Positions 53,227 through 58,425 of a stretch of 64,000 bases of DNA are shown here, in pieces. How positions within the stretch are numbered: position 1 is the first letter of the stretch; each line of letters opens with the position of its first letter. Source of the DNA: an uncultured bacterium (GTDB lineage: Bacteria > Verrucomicrobiota > Kiritimatiellia > CAIKKV01 > CAITUY01); NCBI GenBank assembly GCA_903908715.1, contig CAIVSY010000061.1, positions 1 to 64,000 of the forward strand. Reading direction: 5' to 3'. The translations under genes and the position numbers were made by a program. The notes beneath the pieces are model-generated. The model did no database searches. It was not told where the DNA came from and saw only the letters and a program-made list of their open reading frames with translations.

Positions 53227-53841
53227 TCATCGCAACTTGATGCCGAAACCGACAAGGGGCGTCGTCACATAGCTGCCTTCGAGAAAAATCCCGACTGAAG
53301 GGGTGAAGTTGTACATAAGTCCAAGGCTGAGCAAGGGATTGATTTCGGTTGTGATTTCCTTGCCGCCGGAAGGAAGATCTTCCTCCGTTTGCGAAAAATC
53401 GATCCCGATCGCGCTGTAAAGGTGCAGGTCATTCAGCAAGGTTTCGTCACTGGTTACCAGGGAAAGGGATCCCCCCAGCACGTTAATGGTGTCTGTGTTT
53501 GCGTAGTAGAAGACAGGCCGCATGGCAAGATCACAAATGAAATCACCAGGTGTGCAGATCGTTGAACCAAAGGCTCCCGCGAAATCCATCGTATCCTTTT
53601 CAAAATCGATTGCCCCAAGATCAAGGAAACAGCGGAAGCTGTCGATGAAACTGAACTCCTGCCTGATTCCATAGAAGGACAGTTCGTTGCCCATCACTGC
53701 ACCTGGAGTGAATTCCAGGGTGCCGGGATCGGTCAAGGCGGCAGTTTCCGCTATCGGCAAGCCAATGAGTTCGGCGTGGAGAGGCAATACGGGGAGGAGG
53801 CCGACAACAAGCAAGAACGAAATCTTTCGAATGGTTTTCAT
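53227..53841 (-). CDS. Small exported outer-membrane-like protein
   Basis: The 204-residue protein has a clear Sec signal peptide (MKTIRKISFLLVVGLLPVLPLHA) with cleavage likely after HA. The mature chain alternates hydrophobic and polar residues, with many Tyr/Phe-rich short strands, and ends with VGFGIKLR, a terminal-strand pattern resembling small beta-barrels. It has two Cys (ICTPGDFIC) that could form a disulfide. No known family was recognised. It stands alone between tRNA-Val and the phosphoesterase gene. Confidence 0.65.
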   Translation of the reverse strand: MKTIRKISFLLVVGLLPVLPLHAELIGLPIAETAALTDPGTLEFTPGAVMGNELSFYGIRQEFSFIDSFRCFLDLGAIDFEKDTMDFAGAFGSTICTPGDFICDLAMRPVFYYANTDTINVLGGSLSLVTSDETLLNDLHLYSAIGIDFSQTEEDLPSGGKEITTEINPLLSLGLMYNFTPSVGIFLEGSYVTTPLVGFGIKLR

Positions 53842-53971: not shown

Positions 53972-55450
53972 CTAACGGCCAGCCTGAGAACAGGTCAGGC
54001 TTAAATTCTTAACCTGGACCGTTCCTTTGAAGTCGCCACCGATTCTCATTCGGATGCGAGAGCCTTTGGCGGGAATGGTGAATGTACGCCTGGCACGTGC
54101 CCACCCATTTATTCTTGCTGCTCCGGGCTCCTGTGAGTAGAAACTCAGGCTTTCCATACCCGGTGCATCCCCCTCCCGGAGCAAAGAAATTCGGATGCCG
54201 ACAGTTCCCTGGAAATCCGGTGATTTTGCAAATAGAGCATCGGGATAGAATTGCATTCCCGGACTCACTTGAATTTCTACTGACATAATGTGCATGGGGT
54301 ATCCCCGTCGAGAGGACGAGAGAACGAAGATGGATCTGTCATTCGTTTCCTGGAGAACTTCAACCCACTGATGGCGCCTGTCAGCCAGTGAAATCGTCCA
54401 CCCTGATATCACGGCATTCCGGCTTGAAGCAGGCGGATGGTGCAGCAGGTTCCTGCCCGGTTCAAAAACCCTTGCGTCGGCGACAGGCAATGAGGTCATT
54501 CCAATTTCCCCGGGCTTGGCGGAGTACCTGAAGAGCAGGAGGGCCGATACTGCGATTGCAAGGGCAAAAGTCCCAAGCAGTACGGAAGCGGCAGCCTTCC
54601 ATCGCTTGACACGGTTCTCCAGGAGTTTGATTGTCGCAATCCCGGTTACGCCGACAGCGGATTCCCCGGGAAGTGTTGCAGGTGAAAAGTCCAGTCGTTC
54701 CCGTAACGGAACAGAGTCCCGGCGGGGGTCGGCATGAAGGACCACGCTGGAAGCCGGATCAATTTGATGGCGTTCATACTCCTGCCTGTGGGCATCCAGA
54801 TCATACGGGATGCGACGCCAGAAGACTGCGTTTGCGGTTGTGTCGTAGATGCAGTACGAAGCGCGTGGATCGTTATCCCTGGGGCATCCGACGGATCCGA
54901 CATTGACGAGGTACCGCTTACCGGATTCCAATTCAAAGTCCTGGGGCGGTATTGCGTGAGGGGTGCCACTGGATCCCAGCAGATAGAGGGCCGGCTGATG
55001 GGTGTGGCCGGCAAAGAGCAGGGGGTGGGGGAAGCTCTTCCATGATTCAGCTGCATCCCGTTCGTCGAGGATATACTGGAACGCCTCCGGTACGACGAAA
55101 TCACCATGGGTGCAGAGAAAGGATCCACCATCCAGCAGCAGGGGGAATTCAGCCAGGAATGGTATGGCGCGTTCTCCCAACTGCCGACGGGTCCGCCGAA
55201 TCGCTTTCCTGGCCTCCGGATTGAACAGGGCATCGTTCAGTTTGCCGCAGACCACCGCATCGTGATTGCCCATGACGAACGAATGGATGTGGGAGTGTGC
55301 GGATTGCAGGACTTCAGCGGGGGAGGGGCCGTATCCCACAACATCACCCAGACTGATGATGTGTTCCACATGATTGCTTCGAATATCCAGGAGAACGGAA
55401 TTCCAAGCCTGAAGGTTCGCGTGCAAGTCTGAGACAATGGCATAGCGCAT
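53972..55450 (-). CDS. Membrane-tethered metallophosphoesterase with an extracytoplasmic C-terminal domain
   Basis: The protein has 492 residues. Residues 1-210 are a calcineurin-like phosphoesterase: SDLHAN (Asp 8, His 10), GDVVGYGP (Asp 36), GNHD (61-64), CTHGD (about 113-117) and GHTH (148-151), resembling the YfcE/MJ0936 phosphodiesterase group. A linker leads to one transmembrane helix (about 285-307), and residues 308-492 form a beta-rich domain like a jelly-roll carbohydrate or ligand-binding module, ending in KNLSLTCSQAGR. With the helix inserted as drawn, the catalytic part stays in the cytoplasm and the C-domain faces out. A palindrome lies just before the ATG. Confidence 0.82.
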   Translation of the reverse strand: MRYAIVSDLHANLQAWNSVLLDIRSNHVEHIISLGDVVGYGPSPAEVLQSAHSHIHSFVMGNHDAVVCGKLNDALFNPEARKAIRRTRRQLGERAIPFLAEFPLLLDGGSFLCTHGDFVVPEAFQYILDERDAAESWKSFPHPLLFAGHTHQPALYLLGSSGTPHAIPPQDFELESGKRYLVNVGSVGCPRDNDPRASYCIYDTTANAVFWRRIPYDLDAHRQEYERHQIDPASSVVLHADPRRDSVPLRERLDFSPATLPGESAVGVTGIATIKLLENRVKRWKAAASVLLGTFALAIAVSALLLFRYSAKPGEIGMTSLPVADARVFEPGRNLLHHPPASSRNAVISGWTISLADRRHQWVEVLQETNDRSIFVLSSSRRGYPMHIMSVEIQVSPGMQFYPDALFAKSPDFQGTVGIRISLLREGDAPGMESLSFYSQEPGAARINGWARARRTFTIPAKGSRIRMRIGGDFKGTVQVKNLSLTCSQAGR

Positions 55451-55453
55451 GTA

Positions 55454-55476
55454 CGGCTTAATATATAACTAAGCCG
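55454..55476. repeat. Perfect 7-bp inverted repeat just upstream of the phosphoesterase start
   Basis: CGGCTTA (55454-55460) and TAAGCCG (55470-55476) are separated by nine AT-rich bases, ending three bases before the ATG at 55450 (minus strand). It could be an operator or an mRNA hairpin that masks the ribosome site. The TTA...TAA layout slightly resembles metal-regulator palindromes, and a DtxR-type gene is the next one upstream. Confidence 0.5.
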
Positions 55477-55523: not shown

Positions 55524-56150
55524 TCAGTCACGCCAATGCACAAAGATTTTCTCGGCCAGAGTATGATCCACGGTAAACTGGCTGTGGCCGATGGCGAAGA
55601 TGTAGGAAGGAAACAGTCGGGTCAGGCGGATATCCGACCCCGGAAGAATTCCCATGGCCATTAATTTTTGTATCTCCCGGCTATCCCGGGTACTCAAATA
55701 GGCGACCACGCCGGATTGACCGGCTCGCCCGTCACAAAGCGGCCCGACTTCGCGGACATGATCCCGGGCGGCTGAACGGCAACATTCGCCTCGCGGGATG
55801 GTGCGTCCGTGCGGGCAGGTCAAGGGGTGGCCCAGTAATGTGCAAACCCTGTCTTCCAGTCCCGGGCGGAGCAGATGTTCAAAATGGCAGGCATCTTCTT
55901 CCGCCTCGGCATCCGGGACCTGCAGGATATCGCGCAACAGGCATTCGGCCAGCCGGTGACGACGCACAACCTTTTCTCCGGCTTCCAATCCTTTGCGGGT
56001 CAGGACCGGCAGACCGTTTTCAAGGCGGACGAATCCCTGTTCCGCGGCTGCTGCAAGTACATCTGTATTCATGGATCGGATGGGGTGTGTAGGTTCCGAT
56101 TCACGGGCGAACAAATCCTCTAGTATCTCTTCGATTTTCGCGTCAATCAT
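55524..56150 (-). CDS. DtxR/MntR-family metal-dependent repressor with FeoA domain
   Basis: The 208-residue protein is a metal-responsive repressor. It starts with a DtxR-type helix-turn-helix (MIDAKIEEILEDLF... LAAAAEQGFVRLENGLPVLTRKG), followed by the dimer/metal domain with RRHRLAECLLRDIL, DACHFEHLL and LGHPLTCPHG. The last 75 residues are an FeoA/SH3-like domain (LMAMGILPGSDIRLTRLF). It is the third gene of a feoB, Cys-rich, dtxR run; its ATG overlaps the preceding stop by four bases. It probably controls the iron importer next to it. The metal (Fe2+ or Mn2+) is inferred from feoB. Confidence 0.88.
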   Translation of the reverse strand: MIDAKIEEILEDLFARESEPTHPIRSMNTDVLAAAAEQGFVRLENGLPVLTRKGLEAGEKVVRRHRLAECLLRDILQVPDAEAEEDACHFEHLLRPGLEDRVCTLLGHPLTCPHGRTIPRGECCRSAARDHVREVGPLCDGRAGQSGVVAYLSTRDSREIQKLMAMGILPGSDIRLTRLFPSYIFAIGHSQFTVDHTLAEKIFVHWRD

Positions 56151-56368
56151 GGTTCCTTGCCTCCATTGACCACCTGCGTGGATCCTGTGCGCCGGGAGAA
56201 CCGGTTGAATATCCGTCTCAACCATGCGGCGGAACGCGGTTCCCGCGGCATTTCGCATCCGCAATGCGGGCAGCGTATCCTGCGGCAGCCCTTGCCGCTC
56301 AAACAGCCCTTGCACGCTTCCTCGGCTGCCAACTCGTCAAACAACTGATGACAGAAAGAACATTCCAT
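56147..56368 (-). CDS. Small Cys-rich protein of the feo locus
   Basis: This 73-residue protein has eight cysteines in paired sets: CSFC, CKGC, a lone Cys, then CPHCGC. They could form two zinc or iron sites. The C-terminal part is basic. I recall similar small Cys-rich proteins beside feoB in other anaerobes; they are uncharacterised and distinct from FeoC. It overlaps the repressor start by four bases and begins nine bases after feoB, so it is surely expressed with both. Confidence 0.82.
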   Translation of the reverse strand: MECSFCHQLFDELAAEEACKGCLSGKGCRRIRCPHCGCEMPREPRSAAWLRRIFNRFSRRTGSTQVVNGGKEP

Positions 56369-56377
56369 GGGAATACC

Positions 56378-58318
56378 CTAGTAGCCTATGGCTGTCAGGA
56401 GCACGTGGCTCAGGTAACCGGCCCCGAAAGCTGTCAGGAGTACCCCGGCTGAAATCCAGAGGGTGACGCGTGTACCCCGTTCCTTTTGCATGACGAGGAA
56501 TTGAGCGATACAGGGCAAAAAGAGGGTCAGGGTAATGGCCGCCACGGTCAGTTGATGCGTTGTGAGTGCGCCACCCTTTACCAGGTCATAAAGACCCGCC
56601 GCCCCATAGTCACGTCGGAAGAATCCGAACAGAAAAGCAACGGCCGAAGCATCCGGAAGCCCAAGCCACCCGACAACCGGCTGGAGTCCGCGGATGAGAA
56701 GGGAGAAAACACCAGTGATATTCCCCACCCAGATGAGCAGACTTGCAAGCAGGAACATCGGCAGGATTTCCTGGAAGTACCAGACCATCCTTGTGTAGGT
56801 CTTGATCACCACATTGCCCAAAGAAGGCATGCGTAATGGAGGCAGCTCCATGTAAAACATCGGGCGTTCCCCGGGCAGGACTTTGGCGGCGATGAACCCG
56901 CACAGTAGCATGATAAACAGGACTATCAGGGCCCAGGCTGCCAGTGCCGACGGGTGTTGCCCAAGAAGACCGAGGATGACACCGAGCTGGGCCGAGCAGG
57001 GAATTGCCAGTGCGAGAAGAAGGGTGCAAAGGATCCTTTCCCTGCGGGTTTCGAGCGTTCGGGTAACCAGCGTTGCCATTGTGTCACACCCGAAACCGAG
57101 CACAATGGGGATCACCGCCCTGCCGTTCAATCCGATACGTTTGAACCCGCGGTCCACGAGCAGGGCCAGTCGCGGGAGGTAACCGCTGTCTTCCAAAACA
57201 GCAAAGACAAGGAAGAACGAGCCGACAATAGGAAGAATGATCGCGATCGCATACCGCAAGCCCAGGGTAAATATCCCGTATTCCCCGGCCAGCAGGTCCC
57301 GGACTGGCACCCAGGGGATTGCGGCCGTCTTTGTCGTCACCCATGGCAGAAGGTGATTCTGGAAAACTCCGTCCTCGATCAGGTCAACCAGGGTTCCGGC
57401 GCCGAACTGGCCGACGAATTTATACAAGGCAAAGTACAGGACCAGCGCCACGAGTGGATAACCGGTGATCGGTTGCGTGCAGATTCTCTCAAGAAATGTC
57501 CGGAATCTGCCCGGCTGTTGACTGGGATTGGCCACGCAGTTGCCAGCGATCCTTGCGGCATGGGAACGGAGGGCGAGTGCGACATAGTAGTGCGGGGAAT
57601 GGTTCAACCGGTCTCGTGTGCTGGAGACAATATTCAGGATGGCGGCGGCATCGCGGTCATTATTCTCGCGGACCAGGCGTTCCCTTTCCCGAAGGTCCCC
57701 CTGGAGGATAAGACCGGCGCGTGCGCGCGGCGCAATGGGGCTGGCGGGGGAGAGCAGGGCGGAGATGTCCATCATGGCCTGCTCGATGATCGTTCCGTAC
57801 CGCGTCAGGTTCAGGGAAGGAGCGGGCGGAGTCGCGAGCGCCTTTAAGAGGGCTCCAACGCCCTCGCCGCTGAGCGAAGATGTGGCCACGACCGGGATCC
57901 CAAGCTCAAGAGAGAGGCGATCGATATCGATCCGGATTCCCAGGTCCCGCGCCTCGTCAATCATGTTCACCGCGAGGATAATGGGCCGGCCGGTTTCAAT
58001 GAGTTGCAGGGTCAGCCCCAGCATACGTTCCAGGTTCTTGGCGTCGGCCACGTGAATGATGGCGCGCACGTTCTCCGAGAAAAACATATCGCTTGCGACG
58101 CGCTCCTCGTCCGTGATTGGCACGAGACTGTACATTCCGGGCGTGTCGACGATTTCCGTCCGTGTGCCACCGCAAGGAGCGAACCCCCGGGAAAGTTCGA
58201 CCGTTGTCCCCGGATAGTTTGAAACGGTTACATACTTCCCGGTCAGCTTGTTGAAAAGGGCACTTTTGCCTACATTCGGGTTGCCGACGAGCAGCACAAG
58301 GGGTGGAGTGCCGGTCAT
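56378..58318 (-). CDS. feoB: Ferrous iron transporter FeoB
   Basis: This is a GTP-gated inner-membrane Fe2+ importer of 646 residues. The N-terminal G domain has GNPNVGKS (G1), NYPGTTVE (G2), DTPGMYSL (G3) and NMIDEA (G4). The helical GDI spacer follows, then about nine membrane helices including LGFGCDTMATLVTRTLETRRER, carrying the conserved Cys and Gate motif. No free feoA gene is present; a FeoA domain is fused to the downstream repressor. ATG 58318 is preferred because the G domain starts there; an in-frame ATG at 58369 exists. Confidence 0.95.
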   Translation of the reverse strand: MTGTPPLVLLVGNPNVGKSALFNKLTGKYVTVSNYPGTTVELSRGFAPCGGTRTEIVDTPGMYSLVPITDEERVASDMFFSENVRAIIHVADAKNLERMLGLTLQLIETGRPIILAVNMIDEARDLGIRIDIDRLSLELGIPVVATSSLSGEGVGALLKALATPPAPSLNLTRYGTIIEQAMMDISALLSPASPIAPRARAGLILQGDLRERERLVRENNDRDAAAILNIVSSTRDRLNHSPHYYVALALRSHAARIAGNCVANPSQQPGRFRTFLERICTQPITGYPLVALVLYFALYKFVGQFGAGTLVDLIEDGVFQNHLLPWVTTKTAAIPWVPVRDLLAGEYGIFTLGLRYAIAIILPIVGSFFLVFAVLEDSGYLPRLALLVDRGFKRIGLNGRAVIPIVLGFGCDTMATLVTRTLETRRERILCTLLLALAIPCSAQLGVILGLLGQHPSALAAWALIVLFIMLLCGFIAAKVLPGERPMFYMELPPLRMPSLGNVVIKTYTRMVWYFQEILPMFLLASLLIWVGNITGVFSLLIRGLQPVVGWLGLPDASAVAFLFGFFRRDYGAAGLYDLVKGGALTTHQLTVAAITLTLFLPCIAQFLVMQKERGTRVTLWISAGVLLTAFGAGYLSHVLLTAIGY

Positions 58319-58425
58319 ACCGGCCTCGGTTGTGCTGCGTGCCTTCTGCAAAAAAGGTATTCTTCCCATGGTGAAGGGCTTATATTGTAACAGCTAGCAG
58401 GGCAACAAACCAGCGGGAAATCGAA

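Follow-up and report, generated by a model that had tools for sequence, protein, structure and literature searches.

A metallophosphoesterase joined by one membrane helix to a predicted outer jelly-roll domain, and the exchange of outer domains among its relatives in Verrucomicrobiota

Locus and gene features

The window, that is, the whole stretch of 64,000 nucleotides that was analysed, carries a gene for a membrane-tethered metallophosphoesterase (MPP) with a jelly-roll ectodomain (Table 1). The protein consists of an MPP domain (residues 1 to about 240), a linker, a transmembrane helix (residues 289-307) and a C-terminal part of 185 residues (308-492). The initial annotation had given the coordinates and this layout from the letters of the DNA, and both proved exact for the open reading frame of 492 residues on the minus strand. 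The MPP motifs (D8, H10, D36, N62-H63-D64, H115, H149 and H151) all lie ahead of the one helix, as had been stated, and the residues following it, which had been called beta-rich, form an all-beta domain in the best model when folded separately. Relatives found by sequence search in genomes of other genera and families are alignable across residues 1 to about 485, and this end-to-end alignment rules out a chance or false reading frame. A gene for a metal-dependent repressor and feoB lie upstream on the same strand.

Table 1. Features of the gene and of its upstream neighbours in the window.
Feature	Residues	Position	Strand	Basis
Whole gene, membrane-tethered MPP with jelly-roll ectodomain	1-492	53972..55450	minus	ATG start, 492 aa plus stop
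MPP domain, predicted cytosolic	1-240	54731..55450	minus	PF12850 and PF00149; conserved D8, H10, D36, N62, H63, H115, H149, H151; structural match to 3rqz
Conserved linker motif (P248, R250, F255, P257)	248-257	54680..54709	minus	Column frequencies in 41 jelly-roll members
Continuous juxtamembrane plus membrane helix, hydrophobic core 289-307	275-308	54527..54628	minus	Secondary structure of the model, hydropathy, basic N-flank
C-terminal jelly-roll domain, carbohydrate-binding-module fold, predicted outside the cytosol	325-488	53987..54478	minus	Separate model; Foldseek and VIA-align matches
DtxR/MntR-type iron/manganese-dependent repressor with FeoA domain, upstream		55524..56315	minus	PF02742 and PF04023 above cut-off; NCBIfam DtxR and MntR below cut-offs
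feoB, upstream of the repressor		56378..58369	minus	Pfam FeoB_N and Gate; TIGR00437 434 bits (cut-off 315.65)

Metallophosphoesterase domain

The N-terminal domain matches Metallophos_2 (PF12850) over residues 1-205 with 66.6 bits (Pfam cut-off 27) and PF00149 with 45.9 bits (cut-off 21.5). Proteins of the calcineurin-like MPP superfamily bear the metal-site motifs D-x-H, GD, GNH(D/E), H and GHxH, and these are present in the window protein and in its aligned relatives. From knowledge of the family, D8, H10, D36, N62-H63-D64, H115, H149 and H151 are presumably the metal-binding and catalytic residues. Conservation was read from an alignment of 69 distinct sequences, which includes fragments and two soluble MPPs. 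D8, H10, D36, N62 and H63 are invariant (69/69); H115, H149 and H151 occur in 68/69, the exception being a gap in a truncated fragment, and the seven metal ligands are retained wherever sequence coverage allows. The initial annotation had raised loss of the catalytic metal residues in homologues as grounds for doubt. No loss of catalysis of this kind was seen in the 69-sequence alignment, where the metal site is intact, and because these residues are retained across the relatives the domain is probably active as a phosphoesterase.

Models of narrower scope score below their curated cut-offs, the YfcE phosphodiesterase model TIGR00040 with 37 bits (cut-off 56.25) and the symmetrical Ap4A hydrolase model ApaH, NF001204, with 20.6 bits (cut-off 176). 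In structure comparison the first match is 3rqz (Z 29.3), followed by SapH (3qfm, Z 24.9) and two Pyrococcus proteins (Z 24.9 and 24.8). The first of these, a metallophosphoesterase of Sphaerobacter thermophilus whose entry title names no function, shares the whole MPP domain with the window protein (phmmer E 2.1e-37, profile E 4.2e-58; superposition over 229 residues, rmsd 2.3), but its solved chain of about 245 residues is an MPP without the helix or the jelly roll. SapH (Spr1479), a streptococcal asymmetric Ap4A hydrolase and phosphodiesterase, has the same MPP fold and motif order; it superposes over 228 residues with 22% identity, and its profile match (E 1.6e-10) aligns two short stretches only. 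It consists of the MPP domain alone (250-270 residues), to which the window protein adds the helix and the jelly roll. Since the closest structures are 3rqz and this Ap4A hydrolase/phosphodiesterase, dinucleoside polyphosphates would be at least as good a guess for the substrate as cyclic nucleotides.

Linker, helix and predicted orientation

Between enzyme and helix the jelly-roll subfamily carries the motif P-x-R-x(4)-F-x-P, with column frequencies of 0.78 for P248, 0.88 for R250, 0.98 for F255 and 0.88 for P257 among 41 jelly-roll members. The motif might serve as a contact site for a partner or for the surface of the enzyme itself. This region has low confidence in the structure model.

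The sole hydrophobic segment of the protein spans residues 289-307 (mean hydropathy 2.41), and the modelled helix is longer than this membrane stretch (Table 1). Flank charges were counted in 60 of the 69 aligned sequences, namely those in which the helix is followed by 100 residues or more; left out were sequences that are soluble or cut (L002, L031, L039, L051 and L094), those with short tails (L020, L021 and L022) and L100, whose hydrophobic stretch lies further along. The more basic flank is on the enzyme side in 50 of the 60 proteins, the flanks are equal in six and the bias is reversed in four; as these proteins share ancestry, the 50 do not count as 50 independent events. Mean net flank charge is +3.4 on the enzyme side versus +0.7 on the other, and the window protein itself has +4 versus +1. 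No N-terminal signal sequence was seen in the window protein, whose MPP fold begins at residue 1. By the positive-inside rule the charge bias puts the enzyme inside and the jelly roll outside, as predicted for a bitopic protein with its N-terminus in the cytosol, a single helix and the positive flank on the enzyme side. The external domain and internal enzyme proposed at the outset are thereby predicted to lie on two sides of the membrane, and probably do so, instead of sharing one side, which had been named as the contrary case.

YkuE-like polytopic metallophosphoesterases are membrane-attached as well, and they are described as predicted Tat-exported enzymes with four membrane segments (PMC5449189); the window protein differs from them in having one helix, placed after the enzyme, and no N-terminal twin arginine.

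Structure of the C-terminal domain

AlphaFold2 models of the whole protein, computed from a 9-row alignment, have a mean pLDDT of 80.2 in the best of five (the others range from 72.3 to 62.1); in the C-terminal part pLDDT is roughly 80-90, except at residues 421-450 (65-68). The domain modelled alone from 8 rows is all-beta, with a pLDDT of 84.6 and a pTM of 0.81 in the best model and a pLDDT range of 84.6 to 75.5 over the five. Alignment A2 is alignment A1 minus two relatives without the jelly roll.

The best match of this model in VIA-align is 4d0q, the hyaluronan-binding module of the Streptococcus pneumoniae hyaluronate lyase (Z 15.6 over 146 residues, rmsd 2.6). Next come Rhodothermus CBM4-2 (2y6j, Z 14.9 over 147 residues), tied with a phage tailspike domain (14.9); the first three rows are carbohydrate-binding modules with Z 15.6-14.9, and HpiC1 cyclases (Z 14.1) and CBM16 (2zey, Z 14.0 over 137 residues) are also found. 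Foldseek orders the matches differently: a phage tailspike domain leads, a domain of an insecticidal Cry protein comes next, 4d0q (TM-score 0.68) and CBM4-2 take third and seventh place, and Eph receptor and MAM domains are listed as well. In its fold the predicted model is thus a jelly roll like the CBM4/16/22/70-type carbohydrate-binding modules; the term 'jelly-roll-like', a guess from the letters in the initial annotation, is borne out by these superpositions. On the same grounds the domain may be a sugar binder. The carbohydrate-binding modules that share its fold belong to glycosidases and lyases, whereas that of the window protein sits behind a membrane helix on a phosphoesterase.

Sequence searches recover none of the fold-matched structures. 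In the C-terminal domain no Pfam family was found at E values up to 1, and only a chance-level one up to 10; across eight members, Pfam searches up to E 10 gave only chance-level matches, each in one member, including CBM_48 at E 0.12, and no carbohydrate-binding family is matched beyond chance. We accordingly do not assign the jelly roll to any CBM family. It is less conserved than the enzyme, the mean frequency of the commonest residue being 0.38 versus 0.66. Such faster variation fits the expectation for a ligand-facing domain; alternatively, it may reflect weak constraint.

Distribution and exchange of the outer domain

A profile of the jelly roll gave 27 matches in 25 of 58 genomes, that of the window included. 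Comparison with the MPP reading frames placed all 27 copies inside proteins with this MPP, and the jelly roll was accordingly rejected as a common module on other proteins in these 58 genomes. A separate match in an open frame of 241-290 residues, the length of a soluble MPP, occurs in 52 of the 58. Across the phylum, matches at 1e-40 or better were obtained in 45 of 194 genomes, soluble-length frames accounting for some. Named contigs of relatives come from Kiritimatiellae, Lentisphaerae (one labelled Victivallis vadensis) and Verrucomicrobiales, and two distant matches from other phyla (L052 and L053) are soluble-length; the contig search works via short peptide patterns and is not a census.

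A tree was computed from 86 MPP domains, that is, the 69 aligned sequences minus the fragments L039, L051 and L094, plus 20 soluble MPPs. It separates 64 membrane-type from 22 soluble domains with support 100/96, as an unrooted split.

The same jelly roll is present in 41 of the 60 helix-bearing proteins. In Verrucomicrobiales the same MPP and helix are followed by laminin-G instead, above the Pfam cut-off in seven of nine proteins scanned (L041, L042, L043, L044, L048, L049 and L050). The label 'LamG' in the tree covers nine rows, the further two being L045, which was not scanned, and L046, which is cut by a contig end and gave no laminin-G match. There was no laminin-G match in L047 ('otherTM' in the tree), and that of L117, a longer read of L102, is below the cut-off. 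Besides laminin-G, L048 has an HpiC1-like domain above its cut-off, and a weak match to CBM35, below the cut-off (E 1.2e-4), was obtained for L027. The ectodomains of some members, e.g. L047 and L101, could not be placed in a named family; those that can be named are all of a sugar-binding type. With the ectodomain of family f15 the jelly roll aligns at an hhalign probability of 64%, which is only suggestive of a common origin; comparison with the CBM35-like ectodomain found none.

Three close relatives retain the MPP and helix with a 57-residue tail in place of the jelly roll, each adjoining a jelly-roll copy, and in L040 a lysine-rich tail replaces the domain. Tandem pairs of membrane MPPs with such a second, 57-residue-tailed copy lie at L079:5935-8650, L084:5987-8710 and L085:2132-5300. 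The two f10 genomes G020 and G037 have, besides a jelly-roll copy, another membrane MPP whose ectodomain differs, and the ectodomain of these second proteins (L123:5572-7644 and L124:5107-6813) is alignable with the CBM35-like one of L027.

Gene neighbourhood of the relatives

Upstream genes were identified in part of the members. Of the ten genomes having both genes, six, from six families, have rnfE as the next gene upstream of the jelly-roll MPP gene and in the same orientation (genomes G011, G012, G015, G019, G029 and G035; loci L064, L065, L069, L071, L076 and L077). These ten comprise nine genomes with rnfE above the curated cut-off and G029, whose adjacent rnfE runs off the end of its contig; the MPP gene has other neighbours in three of the ten (G000, G013 and G018), and in G010 it is at a contig end. 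No rnfE above the cut-off is present in 16 of the 25 jelly-roll genomes. The linkage to Rnf is a lead, not a rule.

Further members have V-ATPase subunit K upstream (L068 and L072), a P-type cation ATPase (L032/L079; best match of the calcium type, below the cut-off of that model) or a gene resembling carboxynorspermidine synthase (three members, below cut-off). A glycosyltransferase-2 gene is immediately upstream in L036, as is an RfaP-like kinase gene, below cut-off, in L112. Unrelated neighbours of other members include glycogen synthase, Hsp90, IMP dehydrogenase and PriA. A neighbourhood conserved for the whole family was rejected, as the neighbours vary.

Proposed role and alternatives

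The reading that we favour, at somewhat less than an even chance, is a single-pass receptor-like phosphoesterase that would meet a glycan outside and hydrolyse a messenger inside. The protein would span the inner membrane once, with an active di-metal phosphoesterase at its N-terminus in the cytosol, of a kind that may cut phosphodiesters or dinucleoside polyphosphates. The enzyme would be connected, through a linker of about 35 residues that bears the P-x-R-x(4)-F-x-P motif and then a single continuous helix, to a periplasmic jelly roll, for which a glycan is the most likely ligand. On binding the glycan, the protein would pair or position itself differently, which would change how it hydrolyses a soluble phosphoester in the cytosol. 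What speaks most strongly for sensing or glycan binding is the swapping among outer domains of sugar-binding type. Against the receptor reading stand the jelly-roll fold itself, which also serves binders of things other than sugars (the tailspike, Cry, Eph receptor, MAM and HpiC1 matches), the failure of its sequence to match any carbohydrate-binding Pfam family, and the reversed charge bias in four of 60 proteins. The poorly modelled linker counts against it too, since the model gives no route for passage of a signal, as do the three tailed relatives and L040, which do without the jelly roll, so that the ectodomain is not always needed.

A different role, in envelope housekeeping, would have the MPP work from the inner leaflet on a phosphodiester attached to the membrane, such as a lipid-linked sugar or polymer precursor, with the jelly roll merely keeping the protein near envelope polysaccharide. 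Its precedent is UpsH (YpbG) of Bacillus subtilis, a COG1408 protein described as an MPP whose catalytic domain is cytosolic, which has a single predicted transmembrane segment and which frees UndP from UndPP-linked polymers (PMC11898649). The likeness of UpsH to the window protein is drawn from this description, in whose cited passages no outer ligand-binding domain is mentioned. The glycosyltransferase-2 and RfaP-like kinase genes directly upstream in two members point the same way, yet two envelope neighbours among many unrelated ones are weak evidence, among structural relatives of named activity an Ap4A hydrolase comes nearest, and an inner-leaflet enzyme has no need of a fast-varying, exchangeable outer domain; we regard such a role as unlikely.

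The jelly roll might instead dock on Rnf, a V-type ATPase or a cation pump and so place the MPP beside that complex as a tethered partner, with no sensing of an outside ligand. The position of rnfE in six of ten genomes suggests this, together with the V-ATPase subunit K and P-type ATPase genes of other members and FeoB plus the repressor in the window. The other neighbours in three of the ten genomes and the contig end in a fourth, the unrelated neighbours of many members and the 16 of 25 jelly-roll genomes without rnfE above cut-off speak against it, and a single gene order passed down by descent may account for the Rnf linkage; we rate docking below the housekeeping role. Much the least probable is an arrangement with both domains on the same side, either an exported enzyme on an internal helix or a soluble protein with a buried hydrophobic stretch. 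The very basic tails after the helix in L020 and L040, unusual for an outside segment, would suit it; it is opposed by an MPP fold that starts at residue 1 with no signal sequence seen before it, by the hydropathy of the helix (2.41) and the charge bias in 50 of 60 proteins, and by the laminin-G modules, typical of exported proteins, in the C-termini of Verrucomicrobiales.

Returning to the receptor reading, its extension to Verrucomicrobiota in the broad sense is put forward tentatively, as a proposal that may well prove wrong. A family of lectin-receptor phosphoesterases would there combine a conserved cytosolic MPP and helix with grafted jelly-roll, laminin-G, HpiC1-like and perhaps CBM35-like ectodomains; through it, extracellular glycans would directly govern the breakdown of an internal phosphoester messenger, with no kinase, cyclase or two-component system in between, in some lineages together with the Rnf redox pump. 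With the same layout recurring in one phylum and its outer domains exchangeable, these proteins have the look of a class of surface receptor that is yet to be characterised. Each half of the protein is known in kind; among the literature matches listed, which leave subscription papers largely outside their coverage, no title or abstract opening dealt with this architecture, and neither the combination nor its conservation and outer-domain swapping was met.

For bacteria living on polysaccharides, detection of extracellular glycans is a necessity, and the routes for this are, to our knowledge, two-component systems, anti-sigma factors or cyclases. If the proposal is true, a single protein connecting a lectin-type domain with a phosphoesterase would offer another, very direct route, in a phylum that has been little studied. 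The prediction lends itself to testing, as the two soluble domains can be expressed separately.

Other features of the locus

A phage origin of the protein was considered and rejected, the jelly roll having no match in PHROG and the MPP domain distant ones only (a NinI-like phosphatase at E 3.1e-9 and another at E 0.0059). A defence system was likewise set aside, with no PADLOC match, and scans for promoters and terminators stayed at chance level.

Positions 55455-55475, only a few bases ahead of the start codon of the MPP gene and beside the gene for the metal-dependent repressor, form a perfect inverted repeat (GGCTTA-N9-TAAGCC). It is unique in the genome without mismatch; with one mismatch there are six sites, versus 16 for a reversed control pattern, and with these counts no regulon is claimed for iron regulation via the adjacent repressor. 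Downstream of the MPP gene, an open reading frame of 204 residues on the minus strand (53227-53841) has weak, below-cut-off matches to the outer-membrane barrel families OmpA and PagL.
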